Assembly (NCBI GenBank): GCA_963082975.1
Contig: OY720350.1
Location: 43,912,734-43,976,733 of the forward strand
From: Labia minor
Lineage: Eukaryota > Arthropoda > Insecta > Dermaptera > Spongiphoridae
Direction of reading: 5' to 3'
DNA: 64,000 nt
The position numbers and the translations under genes are program-made. Below, piece after piece: positions 2,812 through 64,000 of the stretch (the stretch's first letter is position 1; each line of letters opens with the position of its first letter). The notes under the pieces were generated by a model. That model had not been told where the DNA came from. It did not search any database and saw nothing but the letters and a program-made list of their open reading frames with translations.

Positions 2812-3068
2812 GAGAGATAGTATTGCGATCACGAAAATTTTCGATGTCATGATTTTGATGTTTTTATACGTTTTGAAGGTCCCTGATTCATGTTCACTGA
2901 TGCTGAGAAAAGTGTCTGTCGGAGTGTGTGTATATAGACAAGATTACACAATAACGGTTTAAGCTAGAATAATGAAATTTGGTATTATTCAAAATTCGTA
3001 ATTTTCTATAAACTTTTTAGAGATGTAGTTCATTCGAAAGAGGGCCATTACCTATCACGTTTTCATTA
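2812..3068 (+). mobile_element. Family A Helentron-like repeat (A1), 5' fragment
   Basis: Begins with the family A 5' hairpin (ACTATCTC..GAGATAGT) and TATTGCGATCACGAAAATTT, then the internal segment ending near CATTACCTATCACG. The TG-rich microsatellite is shortened to a few units (about 2918-2938) and the 3' half is missing. Divergence suggests an old copy. Confidence 0.7.
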
Positions 3069-4412
3069 AAAGAAAAAATTAACTTTTACACTAAAAATAT
3101 ATAATATTTTATTATTTCCAATTCTTAAAAATTTTAGATTTCTTTATTTCAAAATAATAACATTTTTCTTTTTCCTATTTTTTATATGTAGGTTATAAAA
3201 CCATTTGATTCTCTAACTAAAATAATTTTATATATAATTATAAATAGTTTTTTATTATATAGAATAATTATTAATTACTAATATCTTTTAATGTGCCTAA
3301 TTCTTCAAGAGTTTTGTCAAAAATTCATAGACTATTGATACTGAAATAAAATATTGAAACAAAAATTGACCAATTTGGTATCATAAGAAAGGAAAACAAT
3401 TCCTCAACCATTTTTAGAATTCCGAGGTCAATACGCATTAAATAACTGAAATAATAATATAATTTAAGAGGATTGCGTATAATTTTTTCTTAGATACTTA
3501 AAAATGTATCATTTAAGATAAAAAAAAACACAGAACAGATATTTAACCTATAATTAAATTTCTCAAAATTAAATGATACTTAATTGATAGAAGAAGAACA
3601 AGAAGACGAAGGAAAAAAATAATTATTCCTATTACTTAATAGTTATAATTGTAATATATTAACTTTCGAGTCCAAGAACTAGTCTTGGAATGTACTATCA
3701 TAAATTTTCGGTATTGGATTCACAGACATGGTGAGAATAACCGACTTAGTGTTTAGTGTTTAGAAAGAAGAAAAACAATTAAAATAATAATAATTATAGT
3801 ATAAAATACTTCATATGTAATATAGTTTAAAGATAAAAGTAACGATCTAACCATTTTACCAAAAGTCATTACATTTTTAAAAGACAATATAAAATGTTTA
3901 TATTAATTTTGTCAATCTTCGTTATAACTTCTTCGCCTAAGAGTATTTAACTCATTTTTTTGTTAAAATAAATAAAGAAAAAAAAAATTTGAAAAGTAAA
4001 CAAATTCGTTTTGTTTATTATTATTAAAATGATATATCATAGATTAGAGATCAAGAATATTTAATTCTATTTATTTTATTAATTTGATATATCTACGTAG
4101 AAATTATTAGATACATACCGTTGATGAATTTAACAATGTTACCAAAATACTATAAATATCCGAAACCATTTCCAAGATGATATTCATAAGCATAATTACA
4201 ATTGGTAGCCCATAATGACTGCAGATATTTTGAGAAGAATTAATCAAAGTAGTATGGGCTATCCTTAAATGGCGTACCTTACAAACAATAAATAAATGAT
4301 GAAGAATTTGTACCCATTAATATTACAACTTCTTATTTATAAACTCAAAATGACTAATTAACTAAACTATCTAACAATTAATATTTAATTTTAACCATTT
4401 ACAATAATTTTT
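3069..4412. other. AT-rich non-coding stretch
   Basis: No coding region, RNA gene or recognisable transposon end found. Only short AT-rich runs are visible. Confidence 0.45.
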
Positions 4413-5014
4413 ACTATCTCGCCAAAGATAGTATTGCGATCACGAAAATTTTTGATGTTGAGATTTTGATGTTTTTTTACGTTTTGAAGGTTCCTGAATC
4501 ATTGTCACTAAGGTTGAGAAAAATGTCTGTGTGTATGTGTGTGTGTATGTATGTAACTAAGATTACGCAAAAACGGTTTGAGCTAGAATCATGAAATTTG
4601 GTACATGGGCATTATTCAAAATTCATAGTTTTCTATCAACTTTTGAGAAATGTAGCTCAACCGGAAGAGGATCATTACCTACGTTTTGATGTTTTTTTCT
4701 TCTAAAGTGACCGTAAAAATGAAGATATATGTTTGATAATTTTTCACATGATTAATAATTGTATAAAACTGCTATATATAGAATTTCAGCTTGATTGAAT
4801 CGCTGAAAGTACCAGAATTAATTTTTTAACACTGCAAATCTCACGTGCCAACACGTGACGCGGTGCCATCAACAAAGAGCCAAACATGCGCTGGTTTAAT
4901 AAATATTATTTATTAATTTTAATTTATAATTTAATTAATTTAATTTAATTTAAATTAATATATGTTATTTAATCCAATTCAAATTTGCGAGATAGTCGTG
5001 TGGAGACACTCCAG
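4413..5014 (+). mobile_element. Family A Helentron-like repeat (A2), full length
   Basis: Complete reference copy of about 600 bp. Order of parts: 5' hairpin with ACTATCTCGCC; a GT/GTAT microsatellite (about 4528-4556); the core ATGAAATTTGGTAC (about 4592) and ACCGGAAGAGG (about 4660); a segment with CACGTGACG; then the inverted sub-terminal motif GCGAGATAGT, and a terminal stem GTG-GAGA-CAC ending CTCCAG. There is no ORF. The short sub-terminal inverted repeat, internal microsatellite and 3' hairpin are the plan known for non-autonomous Helentrons (HINE/DINE). The class assignment rests on architecture, not on a matching Rep/helicase gene. Confidence 0.7.
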
Positions 5015-5394
5015 ATTTTTTAAATTTATCTTTATTATATATATTGGATCCTTAATCTTTTTCAAGAGAAAATAATACCTAAATAATTATTATAATTACA
5101 ATAATTGGATACAAGGGATATTTTAATTTCCCGGGCAGTATAAGTTGCAATTTTTTGTTGTTTCGTTGTTAAACATTTCTGAAAAGTATCTATAAGTAAA
5201 TTTTTAGCCCTATTGAATTTTGTTCAGACCCATGTCAGCTAGACAAAAAATGTTTATTATTCATATATTTGTAAATTTTCATTAAATTTTGATATAAGAA
5301 TCGGAAATAAAATAAAGCACCTTTTTTAAAAATATTGATTTTGGTGAGTCTACTTTGAATAAAAGGATGGTTCGGTTCCTAAATGGCATAAGCA

Positions 5395-6301: not shown

Positions 6302-9300
6302 CTAAAAATATAAAAAGAAAACAAATTAGTAATGTAAAGTCATTGAAAATTTGATTATTCTATATATGCTAATATATTTTAATTTGAATTTAATTAAATT
6401 TTTAATAAAGAATTGATGACATCGGTGAAATTGGCATCTCCAGCAGAATTTGTGCTGTTTTATTGAACTTATGATCAATTTTTTTCTACGATATAAATTA
6501 ATTACTATCACGCCAGAGATAGTATTGCGATCCCGAAAATTTTCGATCTCGAGATTTTGATGTTTTTATACGTTTTGAAGGTCCCTGAACCATTTTCATT
6601 AACGTTGAAAAAAATGTCTCTCTCTGTGTGTGCATGTGTGTATATGTGTATGTGTGTATGAAGACAAGATTACGCAAAAACGGTTTGAGCTAGAATGATG
6701 AAATTTGGTATACGGGCATTATTCAAAATTTGTAGTATTCTATTAACTTTTGGGAAATGTAGCTCAACCGGAAGTGGGTCATTACCTACAACGTTTTGAT
6801 TTTTTTTCCCCTGACCGTAAAAATAAAGATATATGTTTGATAATTTTTCATATGATTAAAGATTGTATAAAACTGCTATATCTAGAATTTCAGCTTGCTT
6901 GAATCGCAGAAATTACCAGAATTAATTTTTTGATTTTTTTTCCTCTAAAGTGACCCTAAAAATAAAAATATACCTTTGATAGTTTTTCACATGATTAATT
7001 GTATAAAACTGCTATATATAGAATTTCAGCTTGATTGAATTGCTAAAAGTACCGGAATTAATTTTTTAACATTGCAAATCACGCGCCTGCACGTGACGTG
7101 GTGCCATCAACAAAGAGCCAAACACGCGCTGATTTAATAAATATTATTTATTAATTTTAATTTCTAATTTAATTAATTAAATTTAATTTAAATATAATAT
7201 ATGTTATTTAATCCAATTCAAATAGCGAGATAGTCGAGTGGAGACATTCCAGCTTATTTTTTAGTTATATTTGGTATATATCTATAGAGACAGAAATAAT
7301 GATTTATTATTTTATAAAATTATTAAACCCCTCTTTGATTTCTAATCTAATTATATATACTACATAAATAAAAAAAAGAAATAAAATCACTTTTAAAAAT
7401 GAATTATTCAAAAAAACATTTATTTGAAATTATTATTTGTGAAACAATATCTTAATATTATTTTAAATAATATAATTATATTATTCTTGCCTTTTAAAAT
7501 ATCGATAATGTTTTTCCAAATCATCTATCAATTCCAAATCAAATTGTGTTATATCACTAACAATCTCCTCAAAATGATAACGCAAACGAAACAACCATAT
7601 GATTATAGAAGTCAAACTACATAAAATATTACGCATAAACTCAAAAAGAGACATAGCGATGATAAACAGATGATCTTTTCCTAAAAACAAATAGATAATC
7701 ATCATCATTATCATTAGTTTATGTGCAAAAAAAATATTTTTTAGAAACCTTCAAAATTTTTGGCATATAAAATATATTTTGATCCACATCTAATTATTTT
7801 CTTATAATATTCCCTTAATTCATATTTATAATTTTATGTGACAAAGATACTTAATGAATAAGTGAGTATAAAACATATCGAAAGCATTCACTAAATGTCT
7901 TCCACAAATTAATTTAAATTTATTTATCTATTTATCTCTCTATCTCGGTTATCCGACAGAACTCGAAAATTCTTGCCCGAATAAACCACATTACTCGACT
8001 ACTTCCATCCAACTCCTAACCTCTCCCAATTCCCTCACGTATCTCATTAGGTTGTCTGCCCCAATTGGTCTTCTTAAAAACAAGTTTCTCGCTACTCTTT
8101 TTACACTCATTCGAGCTACACATCCTGTAATCCTGTAATATGTTTGGAGACTGGTCATGCAATTCATTGTTCATCCATTTCTCAGAGATTTCATTCTTCC
8201 CCGGCTGGATCAGTGTCTGCCAAACTTTACCACATTAAGAAACGCGGTCATATGTTTCGCAGCACACTAAATAAAAAATTTCGTGAAATTAAATACAACT
8301 AACCAATATGAGAAAAAAATTTATTTATTTAATATAGTAATAATAAAATTCCTTATATTATTTTATTGAGATATAATGCATTTAAATAAAAAATATGCAG
8401 AGATAATATTATTAACAAAAAGAATGCAATTAATGCTGAGAAAATTTTTTGTTAATTGTGTTGCTGTTAAAGCCTCTCCCTGATTTAGATTTATTTATTT
8501 TAATATCAATTTATTTTTATATAATTTTTATAAGTTTTTTTCTTTTATATATATATATATTTTTGTATATTTATATTCACCGACGTGGTCGGTCTGTTCA
8601 GTCGCTATTTTGACTTACAAATGGGTCACATGACCCCTCACAGCCAATCATCTTGCTGCCTTTTGTTGATGTTGGTCTCGAGGCTTCTGTCTTGAGCGTT
8701 CTCTTCACTTGTATATTAGACTTCTTGTTGTGAACTTGCTTTTTGGACTTGGATATCGTTGACACGCCTTTTGCTTTTTAGCTGTGAATTCGCCATTTTT
8801 TGTTAACCACGTGCTTGGCAAACTGTGTTGAGTTATTATTTCTTTTTATTTTTATATTTAATTTCATTTTATTTTTACTTTATATTAATTTTCTTTTCAT
8901 TAAATATTATAACGTGGCAACGAGCCTTTTTCTTCTATTCGTAAAAAAGTGAACCTAATCTTCCCTTTTCAGGTCCATATGTTAGCATCGGATATTTTGA
9001 TTAATTTAATTTGTTATTATTTCTTTCCGATTTTGGTTCTCCAAGGCGAATCGCCTAAGCACTAATAGTCAAATGTACTGCACTCTTTGGTTAAGTTTAT
9101 TTCAGGGCTTCTTTCCCAAATAATTTTATTTTACTCCCCGTGTGAAAGAATTGAGAATTCTTTTTTTAACTCCTTCAATAGTGGCACAGGTGATCCGATA
9201 GGCTCGACAATATTTTATTTTGTCCTCGGCTTGTCCAGTTGCACTGGATGATATATTCAATAAAATAACATTAAGTGACTCCAACCAATTATAAGGAAAG

Positions 9301-9410: not shown

Positions 9411-9450
<40 letters not shown>

Positions 9451-17110: not shown

Positions 17111-17340
17111 TATATTTATTATATAAATTAATATTCATTTAAAATGATATTAAATCATTTATTTAAAATGATTTAAAACATTTATTAAAATGATTTAAAA
17201 CATTCATTTAAAATGATATTAAAACATTCATTTAAAATCATATTAAAACATAGCTAGTAAATAATAATTCGTTATATTTATATTATATTTATATTATATT
17301 TATATTATTGTAGTTCAATGTTAATAAATTACTCCATAAA

Positions 17341-19200
17341 ATGGATCGTTGGCTACAAACTGGTTCAACACAGAAACGGAAAGAATCAGATGATGAGGCA
17401 TCAACAGCAAACTCTACCAAGAAACGCAAAACTAGAAAATATTCGGATGATTATTTATCATTTGGATTTACTTATATTTGCAACAATGATGTGGAAAGAC
17501 CAGTCTGCGTTCTATGTCAGGAAAGTTTATCCAATGAAAGTATGAAACCTGCTAATCTCAGACGTCATTTACAAACAAAGCACAGCGAGCATGTTAGTAA
17601 GTCTATCGAATTTTTTAAAATGAAAAAAGAAGAACTTAATTCAAGTCAGAAATTGATGGTAAAGACGGGATCTGGTGGTATGAGTAAGAAAGCAGTAATG
17701 GCATCATATGAAGTAGCTCTACTTATTGCTAAAGCAGGAAAGCCGCATAATATAGCAGAGCAATTAATTCTTCCTGCTACAAAAGTAATTACAAATATAA
17801 TGTTAGGAACTAAAGCAGCAAACGATATAAATTTGATTTCATTATCAAATGATACGGTTAAGAATAGGATTGAAGACATGTCATGTAATATAAAAGAAGA
17901 ATTAATATCGAGAGTGCGCAAAAGTCACTATTACTCATTACAATTGGATGAAAGTACTGATGTCACTAATAATGCCAATTTGTTAGCTTTCATTAGATAT
18001 GAGTTTGAAAATCAAATACAAGAAGATGTATTGTTTTGTGATTCACTACCTTCACGAACGACAGCTAATGACATATTTAACAGTTTGAATAATTTTATAA
18101 CCGAAAATGAAATAGAGTGGCCAAAATGTGTTGGAATTTGCACTGATGGTGCTCGTGCAATGTCAGGTACAAGAACTGGATTGATTGCTCTTATTAAAAA
18201 TGTTGCGCCTCAGGTTGTTTGGAATCATTGCTGCATTCACAGAGAATCATTAGCAGCCAAAAATATGTCACCAGATTTGAAAAGAACATTAGACGAAGTA
18301 GTTAAAATTGTCAATTTCATTAAGGCTCGTCCACTTAATTCCAGAGTTTTTAAAATTTTGTGTGAGGAAATGGGTAGTCAACATACACATTTATTATTAC
18401 ATACAGATGTACGTTGGTTGTCCCGCGGGAAAGTACTCATTCGCCTTTTTGAGCTTCGAGATGAAATACGATTGTTTTTAATAGATGCGCATTTTGAACT
18501 GACCGAATGTTTCAATGATTTTATCTGGTTAGCTAAGGTGGCTTACTTGACTGATATTTTTACAAAATTGAACGAACTTAATTTGAGCCTGCAAGGTACT
18601 GTTGTAAATATATTTAAAGTTGAAGATAAAATAGAAGCAATGATTAAAAAAATCGACTTGTGGTCGAAACGCATCCAGAACGGTGTATATGAGTCTTTTC
18701 CAACTCTCAATGATTTCATAGAAAGCTCCAGTGAAAAATTGCTTAATCAAACGCGTCAATTATTTGTTGAACATTTAATTACTTTGAAAAGCAACTTCAG
18801 GAAGTATTTTTCTACTCCTGATCCTTGCAATAACTGGATCAGAGATCCATTTAATATGGAAATTACAAATGCTAAACATTTATCTGCACCTGAACAAGAT
18901 ATTCTCGTGGAATTATCATGTGATACAACTTATAAACTAATATTTAACAAAACTGAATTGAGCAACTTTTGGTTACTTCTCAGGTCAGATTATCCTGCGC
19001 TTGCAAATAAAGCACTTCAACACTTGATTCCATTCTGCACAACATATTTATGCGAACAAGCTTTTTCGGTACTATTTTATATTAAGTCTAAATATAGAAA
19101 CAAATTAAATGTAGAGCCGGATCTTAGATTAAAAGTTTCCAATATTAAGCCAGATATTGAGATTCTTGTTTCAAGAAAACAACTGCATACATCTCATTAA
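17341..19200 (+). CDS. hAT-superfamily transposase, copy 2
   Basis: 619-aa ORF identical to the one at 61-1920, with the same ATG, BED finger (C56, C59, H76, H81), acidic positions D203, D269 and E572, and C-terminal dimerisation region. It lies inside a fully bounded element, so this copy shows that gene and termini belong together. The promoter is presumably in the roughly 1-kb leader (16260-17340); no TATA box could be singled out in this AT-rich sequence. Confidence 0.94.
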   Translation: MDRWLQTGSTQKRKESDDEASTANSTKKRKTRKYSDDYLSFGFTYICNNDVERPVCVLCQESLSNESMKPANLRRHLQTKHSEHVSKSIEFFKMKKEELNSSQKLMVKTGSGGMSKKAVMASYEVALLIAKAGKPHNIAEQLILPATKVITNIMLGTKAANDINLISLSNDTVKNRIEDMSCNIKEELISRVRKSHYYSLQLDESTDVTNNANLLAFIRYEFENQIQEDVLFCDSLPSRTTANDIFNSLNNFITENEIEWPKCVGICTDGARAMSGTRTGLIALIKNVAPQVVWNHCCIHRESLAAKNMSPDLKRTLDEVVKIVNFIKARPLNSRVFKILCEEMGSQHTHLLLHTDVRWLSRGKVLIRLFELRDEIRLFLIDAHFELTECFNDFIWLAKVAYLTDIFTKLNELNLSLQGTVVNIFKVEDKIEAMIKKIDLWSKRIQNGVYESFPTLNDFIESSSEKLLNQTRQLFVEHLITLKSNFRKYFSTPDPCNNWIRDPFNMEITNAKHLSAPEQDILVELSCDTTYKLIFNKTELSNFWLLLRSDYPALANKALQHLIPFCTTYLCEQAFSVLFYIKSKYRNKLNVEPDLRLKVSNIKPDIEILVSRKQLHTSH

Positions 19201-19692
19201 ATATGTAAGTTATATTTAATGAGATAGATGCAGTTATTTTTTAAAATATTTCTTATTTAATATTTTCTGAAAAAAATTATAAAATATTTATATGAATTTA
19301 ATGTAAGTACCCATTATAATTTGTGAGATTTGTTGCTATGACAATGTTTGTATTTTCTTTCTTCAATATTATAATTTCTAATAAAATGTGTTCTACAATA
19401 TGCAAAAAAATCGTTATTCACCAATCACTGTTAGAAATATTCATCATATATCCTTGTCCTTATGAGATCGTAAGCCAGAAATTAATTAATAAAATGACGT
19501 AAAGTACCTAAAGTTGTGATGGGGGTCCGTCAAAAAAAATTTTTTCAAGTGGGGGTCCGTGGAGTACATAAGTTTAAGAACCTATGTCTTAGTGAAATAT
19601 AAAAAAAAAAATAAATGTTATTATTCATTAACAAGTATATATATATATATATAAATTCATACTCACCACTCTTAAAATATTGATTATTAAAT

Positions 19693-20472: not shown

Positions 20473-22059
20473 TCATTTCATTAATTTCTGTTTTAATTTG
20501 CCTTTTTTCCATTTATACTTGTTGGGGCCTTCTAATGCATCTTGAAGTATTAAATTTGATATATCTGGACTGTCTAGGCTTTCCTCGTCTTGAGTATTTT
20601 TATTCTTGGGATTTTTTGTTTTTATATAATTATGTACCTTTTTTGGTCTCCCTTTCATATTTGTTTTAATAAATTTCGGCCTTCCTGGACCTTTTTTCAT
20701 AATTATTTCATCATCTGAATTTTCTTCATTTTCATTTTCACCTTTTTCAAGTTTTTCTTCATCTTCAAGATTTTCATTTTCGTTTTCATCTTGAATTTCA
20801 TTTTTATTTTCATTGAACAGGTTATAGAGATTTACAGAATTTTCTTCAAGTATTTCTTCATTTTTAGCAGTGGATTCAGATATAGGATTTATCATGTATA
20901 AACCATCTTTCTTGAATGTAGTAATAATGGTTTCTCCTTTTTCATTCTTTATAACTGCTTTTGAATGAATAAAAAATATTTTCTTTCTTTTAGATGTGGC
21001 TTTTGAAATGGATATAAGATTTCTTTTTAAATTCGGTACATATAAAACATTTTCTAACTCTATTTCAGTTATTTTATTATTATTTTTTAATTTAAAATAA
21101 ACGTTTCCGATTCCTTTTACTTCTGTGCAATCATTATTTGCTAATCTTACCTTTTGATCAGATTTCTTGAAATTTTTAAATTTTTTTCTATCATTACACA
21201 TATGCGATGTCGCTCCACTGTCGAGGCACCATGAATCATTCGAATCGTTGTTGTTCTCAATGTAGTTTGCAGCAAACATTGACTTTTTGCTTTTTATATT
21301 ATCTCGTTGAATTTTTTGTTCATTATTTTTCTTTTTAAAACATTGAGATGCTTTATTCCCGACTCGATGACAATAATTACATTTAAATCTGAAAAAATAT
21401 TTATTTTCATTATTTTTATATTTAAAATCTGGTTTGCCTTTTATTGAATTGTTAACTGTGTAATTTTTCATATTAAATGCATCCTGAACTTCAGGCGTAT
21501 TATTTCGTTTCTTGGAATTTGCTTCTTCCAATAATTTTATTTTTAGGTTCTCTGGGTCAGGTAATACATCACGTGTTTCTATTGCACATCTAAAATTTTC
21601 GTAACTTGTTGGAATGCTATAAAGTAAAATAATCGTTAATAAATCATTTTGTATTTCAAGATCCATTTCTTTGAGTTTATCTATAATATTAAAAAATTCA
21701 TTTAAATGCTCAGACATGCAATCATCTTCGTTCATCTTTTTAAAAATTAATTGTTTTAACAAGGTTGCCTTTTTAGCTGGACCTTTAGACAAATAAATAT
21801 CTTGTAATTTTTTCCATACCTGATTTGCAGTCTTGCATCGTTTAACATGAATCAGCTCTGGTGGGCTTATAGCTAATATCAGCTCAGCTTTCGCTTTTTG
21901 ATCGTTAATTAAAATTTCCTCACTTGCACCTTCAGTCTTTACAGTTCCTGATACATATTTCCAGAGATTATTCTTCACGAGAATTGCTTCCATGTGAATT
22001 CTCCATGTATCATAATTATCCTTCGATAATTTTTCAATGTAAACTTGACTTACTGCCAT
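20473..22059 (-). CDS. Copia-type Gag-protease remnant polyprotein
   Basis: 528-aa ORF from ATG at 22059. Residues 1-200 match the Copia Gag (UBN2-like) fold, with the start LSKDNYDTWRIHMEAIL. A zinc knuckle lies near residue 226 as CNYCHRVGNKASQC, where the expected His is Asn. The aspartic protease signature WCLDSGATSHMC is near residue 280. After the pre-integrase region (GLYMINPISES) the frame jumps to an acidic linker and GPGRPK/GRPKK motifs normally found between integrase and reverse transcriptase. It ends at the start of the RT domain (ALEGPNKYKWKK). Integrase and RT have been deleted in ways that leave the frame open. Confidence 0.88.
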   Translation of the reverse strand: MAVSQVYIEKLSKDNYDTWRIHMEAILVKNNLWKYVSGTVKTEGASEEILINDQKAKAELILAISPPELIHVKRCKTANQVWKKLQDIYLSKGPAKKATLLKQLIFKKMNEDDCMSEHLNEFFNIIDKLKEMDLEIQNDLLTIILLYSIPTSYENFRCAIETRDVLPDPENLKIKLLEEANSKKRNNTPEVQDAFNMKNYTVNNSIKGKPDFKYKNNENKYFFRFKCNYCHRVGNKASQCFKKKNNEQKIQRDNIKSKKSMFAANYIENNNDSNDSWCLDSGATSHMCNDRKKFKNFKKSDQKVRLANNDCTEVKGIGNVYFKLKNNNKITEIELENVLYVPNLKRNLISISKATSKRKKIFFIHSKAVIKNEKGETIITTFKKDGLYMINPISESTAKNEEILEENSVNLYNLFNENKNEIQDENENENLEDEEKLEKGENENEENSDDEIIMKKGPGRPKFIKTNMKGRPKKVHNYIKTKNPKNKNTQDEESLDSPDISNLILQDALEGPNKYKWKKGKLKQKLMK

Positions 22060-22131
22060 CTTGAGAATTTTATCTCTTCTTCAAATATTTAACTCTTTTT
22101 ATATTAACAATTTCAATAAATCACTTAATAA

Positions 22132-23060: not shown

Positions 23061-23069
23061 TCCATTTTT

Positions 23070-23098: not shown

Positions 23099-23870
23099 TT
23101 CTTATGAAGGCGAAAAAAGCGTCACTCAAACGACTGTAGCTGGTAAACGAATCGACGAAATGTCATGATACTTCATACATAAACTTGTGACAGTTGGTCT
23201 GTGATATACAACTAAAAATGTGGGCGTATTTAAATTCTAGTGATCCATTGAAATATCTATAAGAATTTAAGTCTAGCTAAGTTTAAAGTTGATGAAAAAT
23301 CGATTGCAATTTGTCATAAGAGTGAACAGTCAGACAGACAGACAGACATGAAGCGAAAATGATAAAAACGTTATAAAAATTATCAAAATATACTTAATAT
23401 TTTTTTGAATGCAAGCTGCCTTCTTTCTTTCTCTTCAACGTCCCCTCCCTACATTCCCGGCCAGTCACTCACTCACCCGCTCACACGCACACACACACAC
23501 ACACACACCAACGGCCAGACTAGGCCAATTGGCTCGTTCTCTTATTGGACTTTTGTTTCATTCATTAAATCTTACCCATTCTAAAACTCAATCATAAATA
23601 AATAAATCAATTGAAAATGAATGAATGAATTGATTATTATCCATTCAACTAGTGAAAATATTCTAGATTAAATATATATTATTTTATATTTACAATTTTA
23701 AACATAATTAATTATTATTCAGTTTTTTTTTTATTAAAATTCAATATTTTAATATATATAAACAAAGGGAATATTATTTATATTATTTTATATATTTTAT
23801 TTATATATTTATATATACTTATTTTATATTAAGTTTAATGTATTTAAAAACAATGTCATTTTTAAAAAAA
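23099..23870. other. Non-coding stretch with microsatellites
   Basis: Holds a GACA run at 23330-23348 and a CA/AC microsatellite at about 23485-23509. No gene seen. Confidence 0.45.
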
Positions 23871-30962: not shown

Positions 30963-30964
30963 TT

Positions 30965-41754: not shown

Positions 41755-41834
41755 GAATATATTATTTTGTTTTATCTAAATATTGTGATTAATAAATATA
41801 ATATGATTTTAACAAGATTTCACTTAACATTTTT
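41561..41834. other. AT-rich spacer with AT microsatellite
   Basis: Long TA run at about 41712-41750; no gene. Confidence 0.5.
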
Positions 41835-43198: not shown

Positions 43199-43584
43199 AT
43201 TAAGAGAATTTTTATTAAAAGACCACATTATTTGTATAAAATTATTTATTAAATTAAAATAATTGTACAACGTTTCAACTGCTTATTCTGCAGTCGTTTT
43301 CAAGTAACCGTACGCTTGCTCCGATTCAAGCGGACTGATGCATGTCGGGACACGTCACCTCTTATATAGGCAGTGATATTGGCGCCAATTTTTGGCTCCA
43401 ATTTTTACCGCCAATTCTTAATCTCAACATGAAGTCAGCAGCAATTGTCAAAGCAAGCGTTTACAATCAAGAAGTATGATAGTGCATTATGTCTCTAAAA
43501 TGAAGATACTAAATTATTTCCATAATCAAGATATATACATAAATACACATTAGATTAATTATATTTAATTTAATCTGACAAATT
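43199..43584 (-). repeat. Penelope pseudo-LTR, copy 1
   Basis: 386 bp, starts ATTAAGAGAATTTTTATT on the plus strand. Same sequence at 45928-46313 (direct) and, inverted, at about 48335-48719. Contains a hammerhead-like motif. Confidence 0.88.
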
Positions 43585-45957: not shown

Positions 45958-46313
45958 TATTTGTATAAAATTATTTATTAAATTAAAATAATTGTACAAC
46001 GTTTCAACTGCTTATTCTGCAGTCGTTTTCAAGTAACCGTACGCTTGCTCCGATTCAAGCGGACTGATGCATGTCGGGACACGTCACCTCTTATATAGGC
46101 AGTGATATTGGCGCCAATTTTTGGCTCCAATTTTTACCGCCAATTCTTAATCTCAACATGAAGTCAGCAGCAATTGTCAAAGCAAGCGTTTACAATCAAG
46201 AAGTATGATAGTGCATTATGTCTCTAAAATGAAGATACTAAATTATTTCCATAATCAAGATATATACATAAATACACATTAGATTAATTATATTTAATTT
46301 AATCTGACAAATT
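45928..46313 (-). repeat. Penelope pseudo-LTR, copy 2 (internal)
   Basis: Direct repeat of 43199-43584. It supplies the region upstream of the intact ORF, including its first codons and presumably its promoter. Confidence 0.88.
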
Positions 46314-46616
46314 TTACTCATCCAACACTATGTTCCACATCTTATTAAGTCTATATCCATCCTCTTTGTTAATATTATTGGGATGATTATCAATTTCTAT
46401 AGATTCTTTTATTTTTCTTTTCCACCAATTATTTTCAATATGAAGTGTTTCTACATTATCTAAATTTATTTTATGTCCTGTTGTTAAGGCATGTTCTGCA
46501 ATTGCTGATTGATTTGGATGTTTCAATCTAATGGCTCTCTCATGTTCAGACAGTCTTGTAGAAATCTTTCTACTTGTTTCACCAATGTATACTTTTTTGC
46601 ATTCACAAGTTACCAA
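46314..46616 (-). pseudogene. Penelope-like ORF, C-terminal fragment (GIY-YIG part)
   Basis: Last 100 codons of the element's ORF, same as 43585-43885 by eye, starting at VTCECKKVYIGET. Truncated by the inversion junction at 46614/46615. Confidence 0.9.
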
Positions 46617-46617
46617 A

Positions 46618-48334
46618 CAACATTGCAGAGGAAATTAGATTTGATACGATTAACATACTGAAAAATGCTAAACCACCCAAACCAAATTTGACAAAATCTG
46701 AGATGCGTGCTCTGAAGGAAATTAGAAACGATGACTCTCTAAAGATTATCCCTGCCGACAAAGGTAACGCCACTGTTGTAATGAATACAGTGGATTATAA
46801 ACAAAAAATGGAAAATATTTTGAATTCTTCTACCTACGAAATACAGAAAAAAGATCCAACGGATAAATTCTGTAGAAAACTAAAATCAATAATAAAGAAT
46901 CTACCTATTGAGGAAAAAGATAAAGATAAATTAAAACCGAAAGATCCACAAATACCAAAAATATACGGTAATCCCAAAATCCATAAAACCAACAAACCTT
47001 TAAGACCAATAGTTAGTCAAATCAATTCAGTGACTTACAACTCATCAAAATATCTAGCACATTTGTTAAAACCATTTACAGGTACTAATTTTTCATACGT
47101 TAAAAATTCCACCCACTTAGTAGAAATGTTATCAAAAGTAGAAATTACAAAAAATGATATATTGGTGAGTCTGGATGTGGACTCCTTGTACACAAATGTT
47201 CCTATTGACGAGACCATTGAGATTATAAAATCAAACATTACATTAGATAAAAATACTCTCGAATTAATAGAATTTTGCCAAAAATCTACATACTTTATTT
47301 ATGATAAAAAGATTTATAAGCAAAAAGAAGGATGTGCTATGGGTAGTCCACTAAGCCCAGTATTCGCTAACATATTCATGGAAGAATTTGAATCAAAATT
47401 GGTCAATAATGCAATAAAGAAACCAAAACTGTTTCTTAGATATGTGGATGATATTTTGATGATTTGGCCTCATGGTAAGGATTCTTTAGTTAAATTTGTA
47501 GAAGCAGCAAATAATTTACATAAAAATATAAAACTAAGCGTTGAATGGGAAATAAATGAAGAGTTACCGTTTCTTGATGTATTAATTAAAAAGAAACAGA
47601 ATAGATTAAGGTTTGATATTTTCAGGAAAACAACTCACACCAACAGATATATCCACGCAGATTCCCACCACCATCCATCACAAAAATATGGAGTGATAAA
47701 AACACTGCACAAAAGAGCCGAAGAGATATGCTCAAATGAAAACATTAAAAAAGAAAAACAACGATTGAAGGAAGCTTTCATAAACAATGGCTTCTCGGAA
47801 TATGAAATTAGGAAATTCAGTAAAACAAAAAAGACAGAAATCAAAAATGAAAATGAAAAACCAATATACAGATCACAAATAACATTACCTTATATAAAAG
47901 GAACAACAGAAAAAATAGCGTCAAAATTGAGGAAACACAACATCAGAGTAACATATAAACCTCATAAACAAATGTCTTCTCTCACCTCAAATATAAAAGA
48001 CAAAATTAAAAACGAAAATAATGGAGTTTATAAGGTAACTTGTGAATGCAAAAAAGTATACATTGGTGAAACAAGTAGAAAGATTTCTACAAGACTGTCT
48101 GAACATGAGAGAGCCATTAGATTGAAACATCCAAATCAATCAGCAATTGCAGAACATGCCTTAACAACAGGACATAAAATAAATTTAGATAATGTAGAAA
48201 CACTTCATATTGAAAATAATTGGTGGAAAAGAAAAATAAAAGAATCTATAGAAATTGATAATCATCCCAATAATATTAACAAAGAGGATGGATATAGACT
48301 TAATAAGATGTGGAACATAGTGTTGGATGAGTAA
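46618..48334 (+). pseudogene. Penelope-like ORF lacking its N-terminus, inverted copy
   Basis: Open from the inversion junction to the normal stop. It matches the minus copy from NNIAEEIRFDTINIL onward, keeping the complete RT palm (YVDD) and GIY-YIG domains but lacking about 220 N-terminal residues. A fused frame through the junction is open to about 46574 without a proper ATG, so translation is doubtful. Confidence 0.88.
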
Positions 48335-48719
48335 AATTTGTCAGATTAAATTAAATATAATTAATCTAATGTGTATTTATGTATATATCTTGATTATGGA
48401 AATAATTTAGTATCTTCATTTTAGAGACATAATGCACTATCATACTTCTTGATTGTAAACGCTTGCTTTGACAATTGCTGCTGACTTCATGTTGAGATTA
48501 AGAATTGGCGGTAAAAATTGGAGCCAAAAATTGGCGCCAATATCACTGCCTATATAAGAGGTGACGTGTCCCGACATGCATCAGTCCGCTTGAATCGGAG
48601 CAAGCGTACGGTTACTTGAAAACGACTGCAGAATAAGCAGTTGAAACGTTGTACAATTATTTTAATTTAATAAATAATTTTATACAAATAATGTGGTCTT
48701 TTAATAAAAATTCTCTTAA
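48335..48719 (+). repeat. Penelope pseudo-LTR, copy 3 (inverted)
   Basis: Reverse complement of the other two, followed by 37 bp of the ORF's 5' coding sequence and then the target duplication. Confidence 0.88.
48605..48655 (+). ncRNA. Hammerhead-like ribozyme motif in pseudo-LTR (also 43263-43312 and 45992-46041, minus)
   Basis: Sense strand: GTTAC, TTGAAAA, C, stem II GACTGC..GCAGTT, GAAAC, GTT, GTAC. This follows the order of a minimal hammerhead (stem I, CUGANGA, stem II, GAAA, palindromic ACGU stem III, GUH cleavage triplet, stem I) as known from Penelope elements. The catalytic core differs at two places that pair with each other (C3 to U, G8 to A). Activity is not shown. Confidence 0.5.
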
Positions 48720-48891
48720 TAATTATCAAAATAACCACAAAAGCTTTAATAAATACATTATTCCTCGTTGTATATAAATGCATTTTAGTGTAAATTCTGA
48801 ATTCTAATTTCAAGAACAGGATAATAATTTTATTTTATTGTATTCATTAAAATTCGTTGAATTCGAAAACGCATCTTTAAGATTTTGTTCG

Positions 48892-55680: not shown

Positions 55681-55970
55681 CGGTCGTCTACGGACTATCC
55701 CTTACAAAAGGACCGGCTACATTATTAACAAGAAATATTGTTTTTCAAGTTTTTTTTTTAATTTTTTACTTTCCCGCATACTTCGTATAAGGGAAGTATT
55801 GGAATCGTCAAAAATTTCGACTTCGAGATTTCGATAGATCTTGACGTTTTAGACCTCCCTGAGTCGGAAAAAACCACTTTTGGAATTATGTCTGTGTGTG
55901 TGTATGTATGTATGTATGTATGTATGTATGTATGTATGTATGTATGTATGTATGTATGTATGTATGTATG

Positions 55971-56001
<31 letters not shown>

Positions 56002-56407
56002 TGTCTGTAAGCAAATTTACTCAAAAACTAATCAAGCTAGGACTTCGAAATTTTGTACACCGATATTATTCACAATTTGTAGATTTCTATCAAAATTTCG
56101 TCAAAATCGGTTAACCGGAAGTGGTACTTTACCTACAATGGTTGCGTTTACCTTTCAAGTAAAGTACCAGTTTGCTTCGAGATATTTGCTTCATATTTTG
56201 TATATAGATTTAGAAATATGAAAAAAATTGAGATACCAAATTTCATCATGATCTGACTACCAGAAGTGACATTTTACCTATACAAGTAGCGTTTCCTTTT
56301 TACCGACCGACGATAGTAAGGGAGGTATTGTTTTCACACCAAATTTCGCCTGTGGATATTTTTAGGTACATATCTCCACGAATCATGCATTTTCTTAACA
56401 GAAAAAT

Positions 56408-56550
56408 AAGCGGGAGTGTCCTCCCCTAGACTTTCCCGCATATAAATAGGTATAAAGAGTTGTGAATGAATATTTAGAAAGTGTAAACTTGGTATTGATA
56501 AAGAGCCAGTTCGTGTTAGTTTATTGGTGTCAAATTTGATATTTGGTAAC

Positions 56551-56593
<43 letters not shown>

Positions 56594-57227
56594 AAAGTGC
56601 TACTTTGATAGAATAAAGTGCTAAATTTGATATGAAAATAACCCTTCACTTCCTCTCTTCGATCGGCAATACTAGCACTTCCGGTTTCCGGATTTGCACC
56701 AAAAGTTGATCAATTCATCCTACTGATGTATTAAGTAAATATACCAAATTTCATCAAAATCCGTTGAGCCGTTCAGGCTGTACACATCTATACGGACGGA
56801 CGGACAGACGGACGGACAGACATCATTCTGTTAAGAAAATGCATGATTCGTGGAGATATGTACCTAAAAATATCCATAGGTGAAATTTGGTGTGAAAACA
56901 ATACCTCCCTTACTATCGTCGGTCGGTAAAAAGGAAACGCTACTTGTATAGGTAAAATGTCACTTCCGGTAGTCAGATCATGATGAAATTTGGTATCTCA
57001 ATTTTTTTCATATTTTTAAATCTATATACAAAATATGAACCAAATATCTCGAAGCAAACTGGTACTTTACTTGAAAGGTAAACGCAACCAGTGTAGGTAA
57101 AGTACCACTTCCGGTTAACCGATTTTGACGAAATTTTGATAGAAATCTACAAACTGTGAATAATATCGGTGTACCAAATTTCGAAGTCCTAGCTTGATTA
57201 GTTTTTGAGTAAATTTGCTTACAGACA

Positions 57228-57258
<31 letters not shown>

Positions 57259-57417
57259 CATACATACATACATACATACATACACACACACAGACATAAT
57301 TCGAAAAATGGTATTTTCCGACTCAGGGAGGTCTAAAACGTCAAGATCTATCGAAATCTCGAAGTCGAAATTTTTGACGATTCCAATACTTCCCTTATAC
57401 GAAGTATGCGGGAAAGT
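56408..57417 (-). mobile_element. Second C/B composite element, nested, minus
   Basis: Minus orientation: 5' ACTTTCCCGCATACTTCG at 57417, TATG microsatellite (about 57288-57226), the same junction GCGTTTCCTTTTT|ACCGACCGACG at 56927, a B part (56927-56625) with the same private variants as the outer element (GTGCTAGTATTGCCGATCG), a TA microsatellite (about 56555-56588), and the family C 3' end ending AGCGGGAG..GCTT at 56408. The junction is shared, so both descend from one chimeric ancestor. Confidence 0.7.
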
Positions 57418-57422
57418 AAATT

Positions 57423-58037
57423 AGCTGGAGTGTCTCAACTCGACTATCTCGCAATTTGAATTGGATTAAATAACATAATATATTATATTTAAATTAAATT
57501 TAATTAATTATAAATTATAAATAATAAATATTAAACCAGCGCATGTTTGGCTTTTTGTTGATGGCACCATGGCACGAGTTGGCGCGTGAGATTTGCAGTG
57601 TTAAAAAATTAATTCTGGTACTTTCAGCGATTCAATCAAGCTGAAATTCTATATATAGCAGTTTTATACAATTATTAATCATGTGAAAAATTATCAAACA
57701 TATATCTTTATTTTTACGGTCACTTTAGAGGAAAAAAAATCAAAACGTTGTAGGTAATGACCCTCTTCCGGTTGAGCTACATTTCTCAAAAGTTGATAGA
57801 AAACTATGAATTTTGAATAATGTCCATGTACCAAATTTCATCATTCTAGCTCAAACCGTTTTTGCGTAATCTTGCCTACATACACACACACACACACAGA
57901 GACACACACACACACACACACAGACATTTTTCTCAACCTTAGTGAAAATGATTCAGGAACCTTCAAAACGTATAAAAACATCAAAATCTCAACATCGAAA
58001 ATTTTCGTGATCGCAATACTATCTCTGGCGAGATAGT
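57423..58037 (-). mobile_element. Family A Helentron-like repeat (A7), full length
   Basis: Minus orientation, 5' hairpin ACTATCTC-GCCA-GAGATAGT at 58037, GT microsatellite (about 57880-57924), core, GCGAGATAGTCGAGTTGAGA and CACTCCAGCT at 57423. Lies beside the nested C/B element within the outer element's B part. Confidence 0.76.
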
Positions 58038-58567
58038 AAAAAGTATTTTAGGCATGATGTCTGTCCGTCCGTCCGCTGTGTGTCCGTAGAGATGTGTACA
58101 GCCTGAACGGCTCAACGGATTTTGATGAAATTTGGTATATTTACTTAATGCATCAGTATGATGAATGGATCAACTTTTGGTGCAAATCCGGAAACCGGAA
58201 GTGCTAGTATTGCCGATCGAAGAGAGGAAGTGAAGGGTTATTTTCATATCAAATTTCACGTGAAGGCATATCTCCACGTGTTATGCACTTTGTATTGGTT
58301 TTATCCTCGAGAAAAATCATCTTCATTAGTTTTTTCTTAATTTAAAATTATATGACGTCACCCAGCACTTCATGACGTCACAGCCAGCCCTTATATATTA
58401 TAAATAAAATAAAATTAAAAATATTTATATTATATCCATATCTGTTTTTTTTTATATTTAAAATATCAGTTAACCGGAAGTAGCACTTTATTACATTCTA
58501 AATATTCATTCACAACTCTTTATACCTATTTATATGCGGGAAAGTCTAGGGGAGGACACTCCCGCTT

Positions 58568-59357
58568 ATTTAATCTAAGAATTAAAAATATTTGTTTCAC
58601 AAAAAATATTAGTTTCTCTTTAATTTTTATAAAACGTCTTTTTTATTTTTTTTATAAAAAAAAATTTCTGTATATAAAATTATAATTTAAAGATTTACAT
58701 TTCAATCTAAAGGTTTTAAAAATTTATATTTAAACATTAAATATAATAAATCTGATTATAAATTTGTATTCTTAATGATAAATTTAATTTTTTTTTTCTT
58801 TTTTTTTGTAGTCCAGATCTCTGGGGGAGTTCACGCTGATTCAAAGTCCACCCTTTTCCAATACACATTTGTGACCAACCCTTCTTTTTCTTAAAATTTT
58901 CCCCTGTTGATATCCACTCTTAAAAAAAATCATTACAATATATATATATAATTAACGCTTCGATTACATAAAATTTATTATCTCATTTTCCATATAACAT
59001 TTCTATAATAAATCTTATATTACAATGTATATAAAATTAATGCTGAATGTAATTAAATGATTTATTATATTTTTATAAAAAAAAAAGTTAGTGAATATGA
59101 TCTTGAAATTTATATCTCATTTAATTATTTATTTATTGATAAGTTATCTTGAATTTCATTTTTTTCTATTTACAATTTATTTATTCAATTTAATAATATA
59201 ATGAAATTATTAGAATGAACTATAACTACGAGTATATTAACTTAATTATCACTCCACTGATAAACAAATTTTTAATTATTTTTAATAAGTAGTATATTGA
59301 TAAGATCACTTGTGAAAATATTTATTTTATAGATGATTCAAATTTATAACAAAAAAT
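58568..59357. other. AT-rich spacer with a complex block at 58812-58920
   Basis: The block (GTCCAGATCTCTGGGGGAGT onward) is not recognised; the remainder is AT-rich. Confidence 0.4.
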
Positions 59358-59954
59358 CTGGAGTGTCTCCACTCGACTATTTCGCAAATTTGAATTGTAT
59401 TAAATAACATAATATATTATATTTTAATTAATTATTAATTAATTATAAATTATAAATTAAAATTAATAAATAATATTTATTAAACCAGCGCATGTTTGGC
59501 TCTTAGTTGATGACACCACGTCACGTGTTGGCGCGTGAGATTTGCAGAGTTAAAAAATTAATTCTGGTACTTTCAGCGATTCAATCAAATTGAAATTCTA
59601 TATATAGCAGTTTTATACAATTATTAATCATGTAAAAAATTATCAAACATATATCTTTATTTTTACGGTGACTTTAGAAGAAAAAAAAAATCAAAACGTT
59701 GTAGGTAATGACCCTCTTCCGATTGAGCTACATTTCTCAAAAGTTGATAGAAAACTATGAATTTTGAATAATGTCCATGTACCAATCATTCTAGCTCAAA
59801 CCGTTTTTGCGTAATCTTGGTTACCTACACAAACACATACACACACAGACATTTTTCTCAACCTTAGTGAAAATGATTCAGGAACCTTCAAAATGTATAA
59901 ACACATCAAAATCTCAACATCGAAAATTTTCGTGATCGCAATGAGCGAGATAGT
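59358..59954 (-). mobile_element. Family A Helentron-like repeat (A8)
   Basis: Minus copy with a normal 3' end (GCGAAATAGTCGAGTGGAG and onward at 59358). The 5' hairpin is collapsed: one arm and loop are lost, leaving ACTATCTCGCT next to CATTGCGATC. Confidence 0.74.
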
Positions 59955-60069
59955 AAAAATAACATCACAAAAAGATAAATTCAAAGGTCTTCTAAAAATT
60001 CTAATTTAATTAATTTAATAATTTTTATTTTTCATTATTCATCACTAGTGTTTAATAAAACTTCTTTAA

Positions 60070-60371
60070 CGATAGAAAGGGAAGGTATTATTTTCACACC
60101 AAATTTCACATTTTGAGATTTTTATAAATGTCCACGAATCATGCATTTTCTGAGACAGAAAAAAGTATTTTTAGCATGATGTCCGCCCATCTGTCCCTCT
60201 GTCCATTAAGTGTGCAACTTGAATGGCTCAACGGATTTTGATAAAATTTGGTATATTAAATATATTACTATTAAATTACTACTATATTATTACTTATTAT
60301 ATTACTTAATGCATCACTAAAATAAATTCATCAACTTTTTGGTGTATATCCGGAAACTGGAAATGGTAGTT
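60070..60371 (+). mobile_element. Family B fragment (B11), diverged
   Basis: From ACGATAGAAAGGGAAGGTAT to GGAAACTGGAAATGGTAG; both ends are missing, with a private AT-rich insertion after TTTGGTATATTAAA. Older than the other copies. Confidence 0.6.
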
Positions 60372-61423
60372 TACAAAGTATTAATTTTATATTCATTGCC
60401 GACAATTTTTCACTTAAAATATAGTATTCATTAATAATTGAGTAATTAAACTAAAAATAAAAACCAAGATTATATAATTTAGTCATTTTAATTCAAGTTT
60501 TAAAAATATTTTTTTTTTATACTTTATATTCTATATAATAATGTATATTATAAATATATAACAGTCCATTTATGGAAATAAATATGGAATTTTATAAATT
60601 TATAAAAAATCATTTGGATTTTCATGTAAAGTACAGAGTTTTGATTTTCAATATTTTCTTAATTTAAATTTAACTATTTACTTATATATTATTAAATTAT
60701 CATTTAATTAATTTATTTAATAATTAAAATATTCATCCGTTTCAAGTTCATATATATATATTATATATCTTATTTTATCTTATTTTGTTCCTCATTCTTT
60801 TAACAAAATTGCGGTTGCTTGTCTTACTTTTACTCTCTTCCAATACATCTTATAAATTTCTTGTTGATTTTTTTCGGAACCTTTTGGCATTTCGCTACGA
60901 TGTGCTAAGCGTTAGGCGTTTATAGAAATCGGGCTTCCGCCGGCATCACCAGTAGAAAGCGAAGAATCATGGAACATGAGAATACAATGATATATATATA
61001 TATATAAATATTTTCAAAATATTTGATTTTGAAGTATATTTGACTTTATATTATTTAATAAGATATAATATATATTTTTTCTATTGATACTAAAAACAAC
61101 GTCAGAAATTGAAATTCTTAGATAAATAATAACATAACATAGATTCTAAATTAAAACCTAATCGGTTAAACGGTATAGACATTATTCATACAACTACTCT
61201 ACACACTCATACACAAAGTTATATTATCTTTAAATTATAAAAGATTGATACATGACCTTAAATAATAAAAATATATATAAATCCCAAAATCTGATAAAAG
61301 GTTTTCTATCATAATCTCAACTTTCTTTTAGACAACGTTTGCTGGAAAGTAAAAATTAATTTTTTATACATAATTTGTTTTTTATTTCAATTTTATTTCT
61401 TATTTTCACATGTAAAAATAATT
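60372..61423. other. AT-rich stretch with a complex block at 60805-60990
   Basis: The block includes GCTTCCGCCGGCATCACC; not recognised. No coding frame. Confidence 0.35.
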
Positions 61424-61998
61424 AGCTGGAGTGTCTCCACTCGACTATCTCGCAAATTTGAATTGGATTAAATAACATAATATATTATATTTAAATTAAA
61501 TTTAATTAATTATAAATTATAAATATTAAATATTAAACCAGCGCATGTTTGGCACTTTGTTGATGGCACCACGTCACGTGTTGGCGCGTGAGATTTGCAG
61601 TGTTAAAAAATTAATTCTGGTACTTTCAGCGAATCAATCAAGCTGAAATTCTATATATAGCAGTTTTATACAATTTTTAATCATGTGAAAAATTATCAAA
61701 AATATATCTTTATTTTTACGGTCACTTTAGAGAAAAAAATCAAAACGTGGAAGGTAATAACCCACTTCCAGTTGAGCTACATTTCTCAAAAGTAGAAGTA
61801 GTAGAAAATTACGGACTTTGAATAATGCCCGTATACCAAATTTCATGATTCCAGTTCAAACCGTTTTTGCGTAATTTTGGTTACACATTTTTCTAAACCT
61901 TAGTGAAAATGATTCAGGAACCTTCAAAACGTATAAAAACATCAAAATCTCAACATCGAAAATTTTCGTGATCGCAATACTATCTCTGCCGAGATAGT
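61424..61998 (-). mobile_element. Family A Helentron-like repeat (A9), microsatellite lost
   Basis: Both ends present (ACTATCTCGGCAGAGATAGT at 61998; CACTCCAGCT at 61424). The GT microsatellite is absent, with GTTACACATTTTTCTAAACC joining the flanking parts directly. A short duplication (AGTAGAAGTAGTAGAA, about 61791) is private. Confidence 0.75.
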
Positions 61999-63279
61999 AA
62001 AAATAACGTGACTAATATTTTTCACTATTTCAATTTAATTATTTTGAACTACATATACAATTCTTTTTATTAATTTTATTTTTACATTATTTAGTTAATC
62101 ATAACTATAAGAATAATTCTTATTATACTTTTGTTTAGTTATACTTATAATTATATTACTTGGAATTTTAATCAAAAGATTAAAATTATGTTTAAACGAA
62201 TCATCTTTTTTCCAGTCAATAATAACTGTATAGTTCCCTCTTTCCTCATTTATGTAAACTTTAGTCCATTAAAGGAAGATGCAAAATTTCTAATCACATT
62301 AAGTAACACAAACCAATATTGATAATATTAAATATACATATACATATTGTCGAGAGACTTGAATGTAAGTGAAGAAATGTCAAAATTCCATCATTTCACC
62401 TTTCAATCTTCTCACAATCTTGCTTTAATACGTTTTTATTTTAAATCAAATTTCTGTTGTGGCTCGTTTATAAATTACCCACCGGCACCCATTCTTATAA
62501 ACTTATAAATTATTCCCATACTCTTTTGTAATCCATTTATATAATGTATTACTAATCTGCATTTAGATCTCTGAACAGACTCGAATACCATTATATCTCT
62601 CGCCCCCCCCCCCTCTCATTTTTCTTTCACTTGACGACCAAACAAGCGATAGAAATAGATCTTAAATAGATAGATAGAAGATGTAATGAAAAATAAAAGA
62701 ACCACTGCATTTGTATCTGATATTGAAAGATATATATCAACTAAAATGAAAATTAATGATATTACAAATAATTTATAATTGATAGTTATCTAATCGTTCT
62801 CTATATAATATTTTAATAGGATCTATAAATATAGATTATCATTTATTTTAATTTAATTCACATTATTTGAAAAATAAATTAAAAATAATTTTACAAAGAT
62901 TTTCATTCAAATAATGATAAGTTATTTAAACAAATTTTAATTAATTAATTTTATTGTTTTTATCCATTGACATATAATCAATATATTTGAATAGAATTTT
63001 AATCATGAATTCTTTATTATATTAACTAATTAAAAATAACTATTAATATATTTTCTTTCTAAATAATATATACATAATGTAACATATCGAAAGGTCATAT
63101 AATTTTTCAATAATAATTGCTTAACTTTTTTAAATACTAAAAAGTATGGTAGGAAATAATTGGTGTAGTAATAATAATTAATAATTAAGTATTGTCTAAT
63201 TCTAAATGTTAGAAGAACTTTATGGCTTTATTCATATACTTAATTTTTTTAGGATTTAAATATTCTTTTTTATATTTTT
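61999..63279. other. AT-rich stretch, nothing recognised
   Basis: A small open frame at 62131-62322 has no protein-like character. A poly-C run lies at about 62603. Confidence 0.4.
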
Positions 63280-64000
63280 ACTACCTCGCCACGAAAATTT
63301 TCGATGTTGAGATTTTGATGTTTTTATACGTTTTGTAGGTTCCTGAATCATTTTCACTAAGGTTGAGAAAAATGTCTGTCTGTCTGTGTGTGTGGTGTGT
63401 GTGTGTGTGTGTATGTATGTAACCAAGATTACACAAAAACGGTTTGAGCTAGAATGATGAAATTTGGTACATAGGCTTTATTCAAAATTCGTAATTTTCT
63501 ATCAACTTTTGATAAATGTAGCTCAACCGGAAGAGGGTCATTACCTACAACGTTTTGATTTTTTTTCCTCTAAAGTGACCGTAAAAATAAAGATATATGT
63601 TTGATAATTTTTCACATGATTAAGAATTGTATAAAACTGCTATATATAGAATTGCAGTTTGATTGATTCGCTGAAATTACAATAATTAATTTTTTAACAC
63701 TGCAAATCTGTATGTGTGTATGTGTGTGTGTATGTATGTAGACAAAATTACGCAAAAACGGTTTGTGGTGGAATCATGAAATTTGGTATACGGGCATTAT
63801 TCAAAGTCCGTAATTTTCTACTTCTACTTTTGAGAAATGTAGCTCAACAGGAAGTGGGTCATTACCTACAACGTTTTGATTTTTTTTTCTTCTAAAGTGA
63901 TAGTAAAAATAAAGATATATGTTTGATAATTTTTCACATGATTAATAATTGTATAAAACTGCTATATATAGAATTTCAGCTTGATTGAATCGCTGAAAGT
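63280..64000 (+). mobile_element. Family A elements fused at the microsatellite, continuing past the window
   Basis: The first copy starts ACTACCTCGCCACGAAAATT (half of the 5' hairpin lost), has a GT microsatellite (63372-63420), and runs to CACTGCAAATC at 63708. The sequence then jumps back to a GT/GTAT microsatellite and repeats the body from ACGCAAAAACGGTTTG to the window edge. The 3' end is outside. Confidence 0.68.

Follow-up and report, generated by a model that had tools for sequence, protein, structure and literature searches.

Three related families of DINE-1-like elements in the genome of Labia minor, very probably non-autonomous Helentrons, and the coding elements that share their ends

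Three repeat families, A, B, and C, recur many times in a 64,000-nucleotide stretch of the genome of Labia minor (Dermaptera; contig OY720350.1, positions 43,912,734 to 43,976,733 of the forward strand; hereafter the window, with positions counted from its first letter), and these families are very probably HINEs—that is, DINE-1-like, non-autonomous Helentrons. A preliminary description, made from the letters of the window, had already proposed non-autonomous Helentrons of the HINE/DINE-1 kind in diversified families, and this proposal is upheld by the anatomy of the elements, by their insertion into T-runs, and by coding elements with an RGSPH Rep motif that carry the same ends.

All three families share one plan. 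Each element starts with a T-run followed by a sub-terminal inverted repeat (subTIR), namely TACTATCTCGC in A (10 bases), TACCGACCGACG in B (11 bases), and TACTTTCCCGCATA in C (13 bases), and continues with a GTATTG motif, a microsatellite, the core, the 3′ half, the inverted subTIR, a hairpin, and a tail, with sub-terminal inverted repeats at both ends in every family. Counted as exact matches on both strands of the window, the subTIRs occur 9 (A), 10 (B), and 4 (C) times, compared with 0.021, 0.0007, and 0.0009 expected from a first-order model, and the hairpins 3 (A), 3 (B), and 2 (C) times, compared with at most 1.5e-5. The end motifs are real, with a frequency far above chance. All of the 5′ sub-terminal motifs, inverted 3′ motifs, and hairpins first noticed by eye were recovered, as were the GT, GTCC, and TATG microsatellites inside the elements; the tail, first given as CT or CTT, is in fact longer (CTTATT, CTAATT, or ATTTTT, with ATATTT in a single A copy).

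A stem-loop lies shortly 3′ of the 3′ subTIR in all three families, and folding energy backs it better in C and B, where 0 and 6 of 200 shuffled sequences folded equally well, than in A (22 of 200). Since the energy in A is unexceptional, the A hairpin rests on conservation rather than on energy. A further inverted repeat at the 5′ end, absent from the preliminary description, is strong in A (0 of 200 shuffles folding equally well), weaker in C (9 of 200), and not above chance in B (92 of 200). Bases 1–89 of B are repeated at B position 269 with 84% identity. No open reading frame (ORF) of at least 110 amino acids (aa) was found inside the window copies, except for a translated microsatellite at 55853–56221, and a comparison with Rfam at gathering scores gave no match.

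Coding partners for these ends were sought in the source genome, as had been suggested at the outset, and RGSPH coding elements with the ends of A, B, or C were indeed found. PF14214 matched the genome at 104 places, and among the Rep loci examined some carry RGLPH and others RGSPH; the latter is the Rep signature of Helentrons, with S versus L at this position separating Helentrons from Helitrons (PMC4067079). The A coding element (C1:47861600–47876599, minus strand; C1, C2, C5, and C6 prefix genomic coordinates) has a 5′ end that is 95.6% identical to the window copy A2 over 528 positions, a 2181-codon open frame containing DUF6570, Helitron_like_N, and PIF1 domains, and a 3′ end whose 45 bases are 100% identical to A2; a B-type 5′ piece is nested between the A 5′ end and the frame. 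The C coding element (C1:44692000–44707999, minus) is bounded by C 5′ and 3′ ends, between which lie broken Rep/helicase ORFs. At the B coding locus (C1:55782000–55792400, plus), B positions 1–533, starting with the B 5′ end at C1:55785336, continue into sequence that is common to the piece nested in the A element (89.8% identity), and this common block starts at the B 5′ end; downstream lie a 790-codon frame and then an RGSPHEH Rep in a different frame. The B coding region and a copy at C2:66.56 Mb share 98.3% identity over 2,372 positions. B sequence also stops near position 524 in the A coding element and near 534 in one of the composite C elements described below. From these alignments, HINE-B seems to be composed of bases 1–533 of the B coding element joined to a short 3′ end, and both HINE-A and HINE-B look like internal-deletion derivatives that keep approximately 530–540 bp of the coding 5′ end together with a short 3′ end. 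In sum, A shares both ends with a coding Helentron (the 5′ link being partly indirect), C shares both (the genes being broken), and B shares the 5′ end only.

RGSPH is present in the A, B, and C types, and PIF1 in the A and B proteins, the C helicase region being known only as DNA similarity. Over the best stretches, protein identity amounts to 58% between A and C (437 aa), 50% between A and B (1,409 aa), and 49% between B and C (486 aa), compared with 24–44% between these proteins and other Helentron lineages. In a tree of 13 rows, with two broken B pieces from C1:55.79 Mb left out, the split between Helentrons and Helitrons was supported at 100/100, and the group of A, B, and C at 89/94, below the starred level. 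The C-terminus of the A protein shows endonuclease-type motifs by eye, with a match to PF14529 below cut-off (E 2.9e-4); it is 31% identical to the C-terminus of the protein at locus L052, which passes PF03372 (E 5.8e-7), and a C-terminal apurinic/apyrimidinic-type endonuclease is assigned through this homology. C-type protein pieces also match an endonuclease-like C-terminus, and none was seen for the B protein. Comparison of the A endonuclease region with solved structures gave a single match (E 0.91), which was not useful.

Two further features of these proteins were observed. The A-type frame ends in a Ulp1/SENP-like region (L047:2295–3680, minus strand; PF02902 at E 0.0045, below cut-off; sentrin-specific protease 8 at E 0.015). 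Helentrons with other deubiquitinase domains are known, according to the part of PMC9741609 drawn on here, and the term Ulp1 is absent from the main text of that paper. Near the N-terminus of the A- and B-type proteins (approximately aa 60–240 of the L047 frame; also L048, L051, L054, and L058) lies a run of 21-aa repeats that may be a DNA-binding part; the Pfam STPR repeat family gives a weak match in a different group (L042, L044, and L045).

Several points weigh against assigning the families to Helentrons with these partners. The A 5′ end lies approximately 3.6 kb from the A frame, with the B-type piece between them, and the link between the two consists of matching subTIRs and one other copy in which the A flank adjoins the frame. 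The C coding region is broken and contains a 5′-truncated A-type element, 98.6% identical to the A coding element over 6,384 positions. A B 3′ end was not found on the B coding copy, covered up to C1:55792400, and the copy at C2:66.56 Mb shows neither B end within the 13 kb examined. Furthermore, the tree leaves the order of A, B, and C without resolution, 6 of its 13 rows filling less than half of the columns; the endonuclease and Ulp1 matches within the A protein itself fall below the Pfam cut-offs; and, where the part of PMC4067079 consulted requires at least 11 identical subTIR bases for naming a family, the A subTIR falls one base short, B and C reaching that length.

The ends of the three families had been called unrelated, a view that no longer holds. 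Hits of the A profile include five B copies, at E values from 1e-7 to 2e-4, and both C copies, at 2e-25 and 4e-26; with the C 3′-end profile, two A 3′ ends are recovered (6e-4 and 7e-4). Between the A and C subTIRs there are 2 mismatches in 10 bases. B is the most divergent family, and the DNA cores place A nearest to C. Judged from these sequence comparisons, the families are related. By eye, the B 5′ region has GGGAGGTATTG at the place of GGGAAGTATTG in C and GAGATAGTATTG in A, which can be read as a trace of an older subTIR.

Nor is C a simple third family in the window, where both C copies are composites of a C 5′ part, a B 5′ segment, and a C 3′ part. The forward composite (55767–58576, plus; profile) comprises C 5′ sequence at 55767–56300, a B part at 56301–56406 and 58033–58460, and C 3′ sequence up to 58576, and is interrupted by two minus-strand inserts, namely the reverse composite (56406–57417) and the A copy A3 (57418–58042). 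The reverse composite (56406–57417, minus; profile) has the same three parts, with its B part at 56928–56619 (B 1–318), so the B segment reaches approximately 318, compared with approximately 534 in the forward composite. The two are 90.7% identical over 854 positions spanning the C|B junction and 98.7% identical over the last 77 positions. The exact 33-base junction occurs 501 times genome-wide (232 + 269), with no occurrence of the control. In the part of C1 covered by 100 listed exact C 3′ ends, 14 of 21 junctions are followed after 514–716 bp by an exact C 3′ end in matching orientation, compared with a mean of 0.05 and a maximum of 2 in 2000 trials of random placement; the other seven have none within 1,500 bases among the listed ends. 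Thus, the composite spread as a unit.

In the proposed mechanism, HINEs A, B, and C would depend for their movement on Helentrons acting in trans, rolling-circle transposons with genes for a Rep nuclease, a PIF1 helicase, and an endonuclease. The Rep/helicase of each lineage—for A, the product of the 2181-codon frame—would recognize its own subTIR and hairpin, which is the least certain step. By analogy with PMC4067079 and general rolling-circle models, it would nick in T-run DNA, one strand would be displaced from the 5′ end, and copying would stop after the 3′ hairpin. The three lineages would descend from a common ancestor, with proteins and ends diverging together, and a B-lineage 5′ segment would have come inside a C element, the whole then being copied via the C ends. 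We put forward, tentatively and as something close to an even chance, that three sister Helentron lineages share one genome while each keeps a separate Rep/helicase and separate ends, that recognition has thus co-diverged on the protein and the DNA side, and that, as the composite copied hundreds of times suggests, the outer ends alone decide what moves.

Genome-wide, ends are very numerous. Exact 3′-end patterns, counted in the 604-Mb source genome with variant ends outside the count, number 15,900 for A (7,882 + 8,018), 15,259 for B (7,613 + 7,646), and 2,681 for C (1,350 + 1,331), and the reversed-pattern controls gave 0 for each. None of the three patterns matched in viral contigs. HINE core patterns were also tried there, one of them hitting two contigs and the other none; since neither contig matched any of the three families at E ≤ 0.01, these hits were taken as chance. 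The pairing of subTIRs and hairpins was surveyed in 360,240 bases of partly overlapping loci, where, in small numbers, hairpins stand beside their own subTIR in 14 of 15 cases for A, 6 of 10 for B (one B-hairpin match, at L052, resembling unrelated sequence), and 3 of 4 for C, the remainder standing beside none.

These numbers bear on the possibility that a single Helentron lineage moves all three families and that their different ends carry no specificity. Homology of the three cores, the similarity of the A and C ends, and the two of four available C ends that lie within two mismatches of the A subTIR are what such a shared mover would lead one to expect. We nevertheless consider it unlikely: each end set is found with its own Rep lineage, the survey of 360,240 bases showed, in small numbers, no A hairpin with a B subTIR or the reverse, and it was through its C ends that the composite was copied, even though a B 5′ end lies inside it.

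The insertion sites bear on a second alternative. At empty sites, among the intact copies caught by the search pattern, the T-run has 8 T in 6 of 11 A copies (range 7–10) and 6 T in all 8 B copies. An older HINE-A (31953–33148, plus; profile and empty-site comparison) is split into 31953–32211 and 32845–33148 by the full copy A2 (32212–32840, plus; alignment, profile, and empty site), which is nested in its T-run so that 6 T precede it and 4 T follow. On the minus strand, A3 and the reverse composite lie next to each other in the T-run belonging to the B part of the forward composite, flanked on either side by 5 T. No target duplication of constant length was found in 10 A and 6 B full copies, to which this comparison was confined, the best short direct repeats there being 3–7 bases long and mostly A and T. 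Insertion into T-rich DNA without target duplication, a check named in the preliminary description, is borne out by the two nested sites and these 16 copies, and of the target duplications named there as the contrary outcome, none of constant length appears in the same copies. By eye, a separate insert with hAT-like inverted ends (31626–31948), inside the apparent 5′ end of the older HINE-A, is flanked by an 8-base duplication, CTATATAG, at 31618–31625 and 31949–31956; a target duplication at a HINE would therefore have been visible.

Miniature inverted-repeat transposable elements (MITEs) derived from a cut-and-paste transposon of the DDE type whose inverted repeats are sub-terminal, the class in which DINE-1-like elements were formerly placed, would account for inverted repeats at both ends and for the missing coding capacity. 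Such an origin is very improbable, given that the 3′ repeat is internal to the hairpin and tail rather than terminal, that the 16 full copies show no constant-length duplication in contrast to the 8 bases at the neighboring insert, and that Helentron coding elements carry the same ends; the terminal inverted repeats and constant-length duplication of a MITE were both absent. Among the ORFs of the window copies, no DDE gene was found between A, B, or C ends, no separate genome search for DDE genes having been made. Finally, that the families are non-autonomous canonical Helitrons, which have a 3′ CTRR terminus, is scarcely credible despite the RGLPH Helitron genes in the same genome, since A, B, and C have inverted sub-terminal repeats, insert into T-runs with neither a 3′ CTRR nor insertion between A and T, and share their ends with Rep genes that have RGSPH.

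As for the HINEs of the window, copies were first found by BLAST, and profiles were then built from six A, four B, and two C copies, which these profiles match by construction. At a cut-off of E ≤ 1e-20 and with cross-hits between families excluded, 12 A, 10 B, and 4 C stretches were obtained (26 in total); when joined, they represent nine copies of A, seven free copies of B, and two composite copies of C, with B parts inside composites not counted twice and with three weak stretches, those of B at 23069 and 30930 and that of A at 24755, left outside. The earlier figure, 20 or more copies or fragments, is correct if stretches are counted, the separate copies numbering only approximately 18.

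Full A copies on the plus strand are A1 (4412–5014; A profile 1–605; aligned) and A2; those on the minus strand are A3 (57418–58042; profile and empty site), A4 (59351–59960), and A5 (61420–62004), the last two identified by BLAST and profile. Besides the older, split element, the remaining A copies, all on the plus strand, are a 5′ part (2801–3066; A profile 1–282, E 9.9e-67), a copy with an internal duplication (A6; 6503–7252; A profile 1–419 then 277–605), and tandem fragments that continue beyond the window end (63287–64000; profile). Full B copies are B1 (36644–37271, plus), B2 (30964–31608, plus), and B4 (23870–24487, minus), each identified by alignment and profile. The other B copies lie on the plus strand: one without subTIRs (30182–30760; BLAST, alignment, and profile), a short form in which the B 5′ end is followed by the 3′ half (40997–41360; BLAST and profile), B3, which has lost the 3′ subTIR and retained the hairpin (41834–42459; alignment and profile), and a 5′ fragment (60069–60370; B profile 10–266, E 1.5e-56). 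The copies at 30182 and 41834 have a common 3′ flank and are therefore probably one duplicated segment rather than independent insertions. The weak stretch at 30930–30956 (plus; profile E 5e-4), beside B2, is a solo B 3′ end and was not counted.

Other Helentron-related loci were noted in the genome. Loci L041–L044 represent a further Helentron lineage (RGSPHIH) whose coding parts are 98–99.8% identical, and this lineage was therefore probably active recently. Twelve DUF6570 places of equal score, with ORFs of approximately 350–410 aa (for example, C1:6952500, C5:16455123, and C6:30925768), may be a shortened coding form derived from another Helentron lineage. At C5:46740114–46771612, five broken Helitron_like_N stretches of equal score are spaced 5.7 or 9.8 kb apart, resembling a tandem array. 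The window itself also contains two 2,320-base copies (1–2320 and 17281–19600), 99.8% identical and each with a 628-aa ORF that is hAT-transposase-like by eye, the copy tested giving no Pfam match; near-identical inverted copies of a reverse-transcriptase element (43197–48759; RVT_1), Penelope-like and with a GIY-YIG-like C-terminus by eye; a 549-aa ORF with approximately 16 very regular C2H2 zinc-finger repeats of 84 bases (34594–36243); and a Copia-type gag/pol fragment of 535 aa (20473–22080).

Elements of this kind are known in detail. DINE-1/INE-1 of Drosophila, as described in the part of PMC2374699 drawn on here, likewise have subTIRs, a partial inverted repeat beside the 5′ subTIR (strong here in A), a hairpin just after the 3′ subTIR, a GTCY-rich microsatellite in the 5′ block, insertion at TT, and no ORF. 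The subTIR and hairpin sequences of A, B, and C are different, the microsatellites here are GT, GTCC, and TATG, and, unlike in that description, A and B each have approximately 15,000 exact ends, and a two-family composite is present. Helentrons and HINEs as presented in the corresponding part of PMC4067079 also resemble the present elements in the RGSPH Rep, the PIF1 helicase, the C-terminal endonuclease, the use of T-runs as targets without modification, and the nature of HINEs as deletion derivatives with common ends; they differ from the 10-base subTIR of A, from the A protein with its weak Ulp1-like C-terminus and N-terminal 21-aa repeats, and from HINE-C with its B-lineage 5′ segment. 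BmHel-2/MITE01 of Lepidoptera is similar by its description in the portion of PMC4344730 considered, being non-autonomous with a 3′ hairpin and a 5′ sub-terminal inverted repeat. Several families with different subTIRs per genome are also known already: D. willistoni has three DINE-1 types according to the same part of PMC2374699, a single base separating two of them, and that of PMC4067079 reports seven families in a mite. The A, B, and C sequences, their coding partners, and the composite with its 501 junctions are results of this analysis, and we do not assert that they are uncatalogued.

Biochemical work is still needed to account for the way in which Helentrons transpose (PMC4067079). Beyond the question of end recognition, A, B, and C are an ordinary, though very abundant, transposon family. 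With three related end sets, three related proteins (49–58% identical), and tens of thousands of natural ends, recognition becomes testable by swaps, and the C(B) composite constitutes a natural test of end choice.

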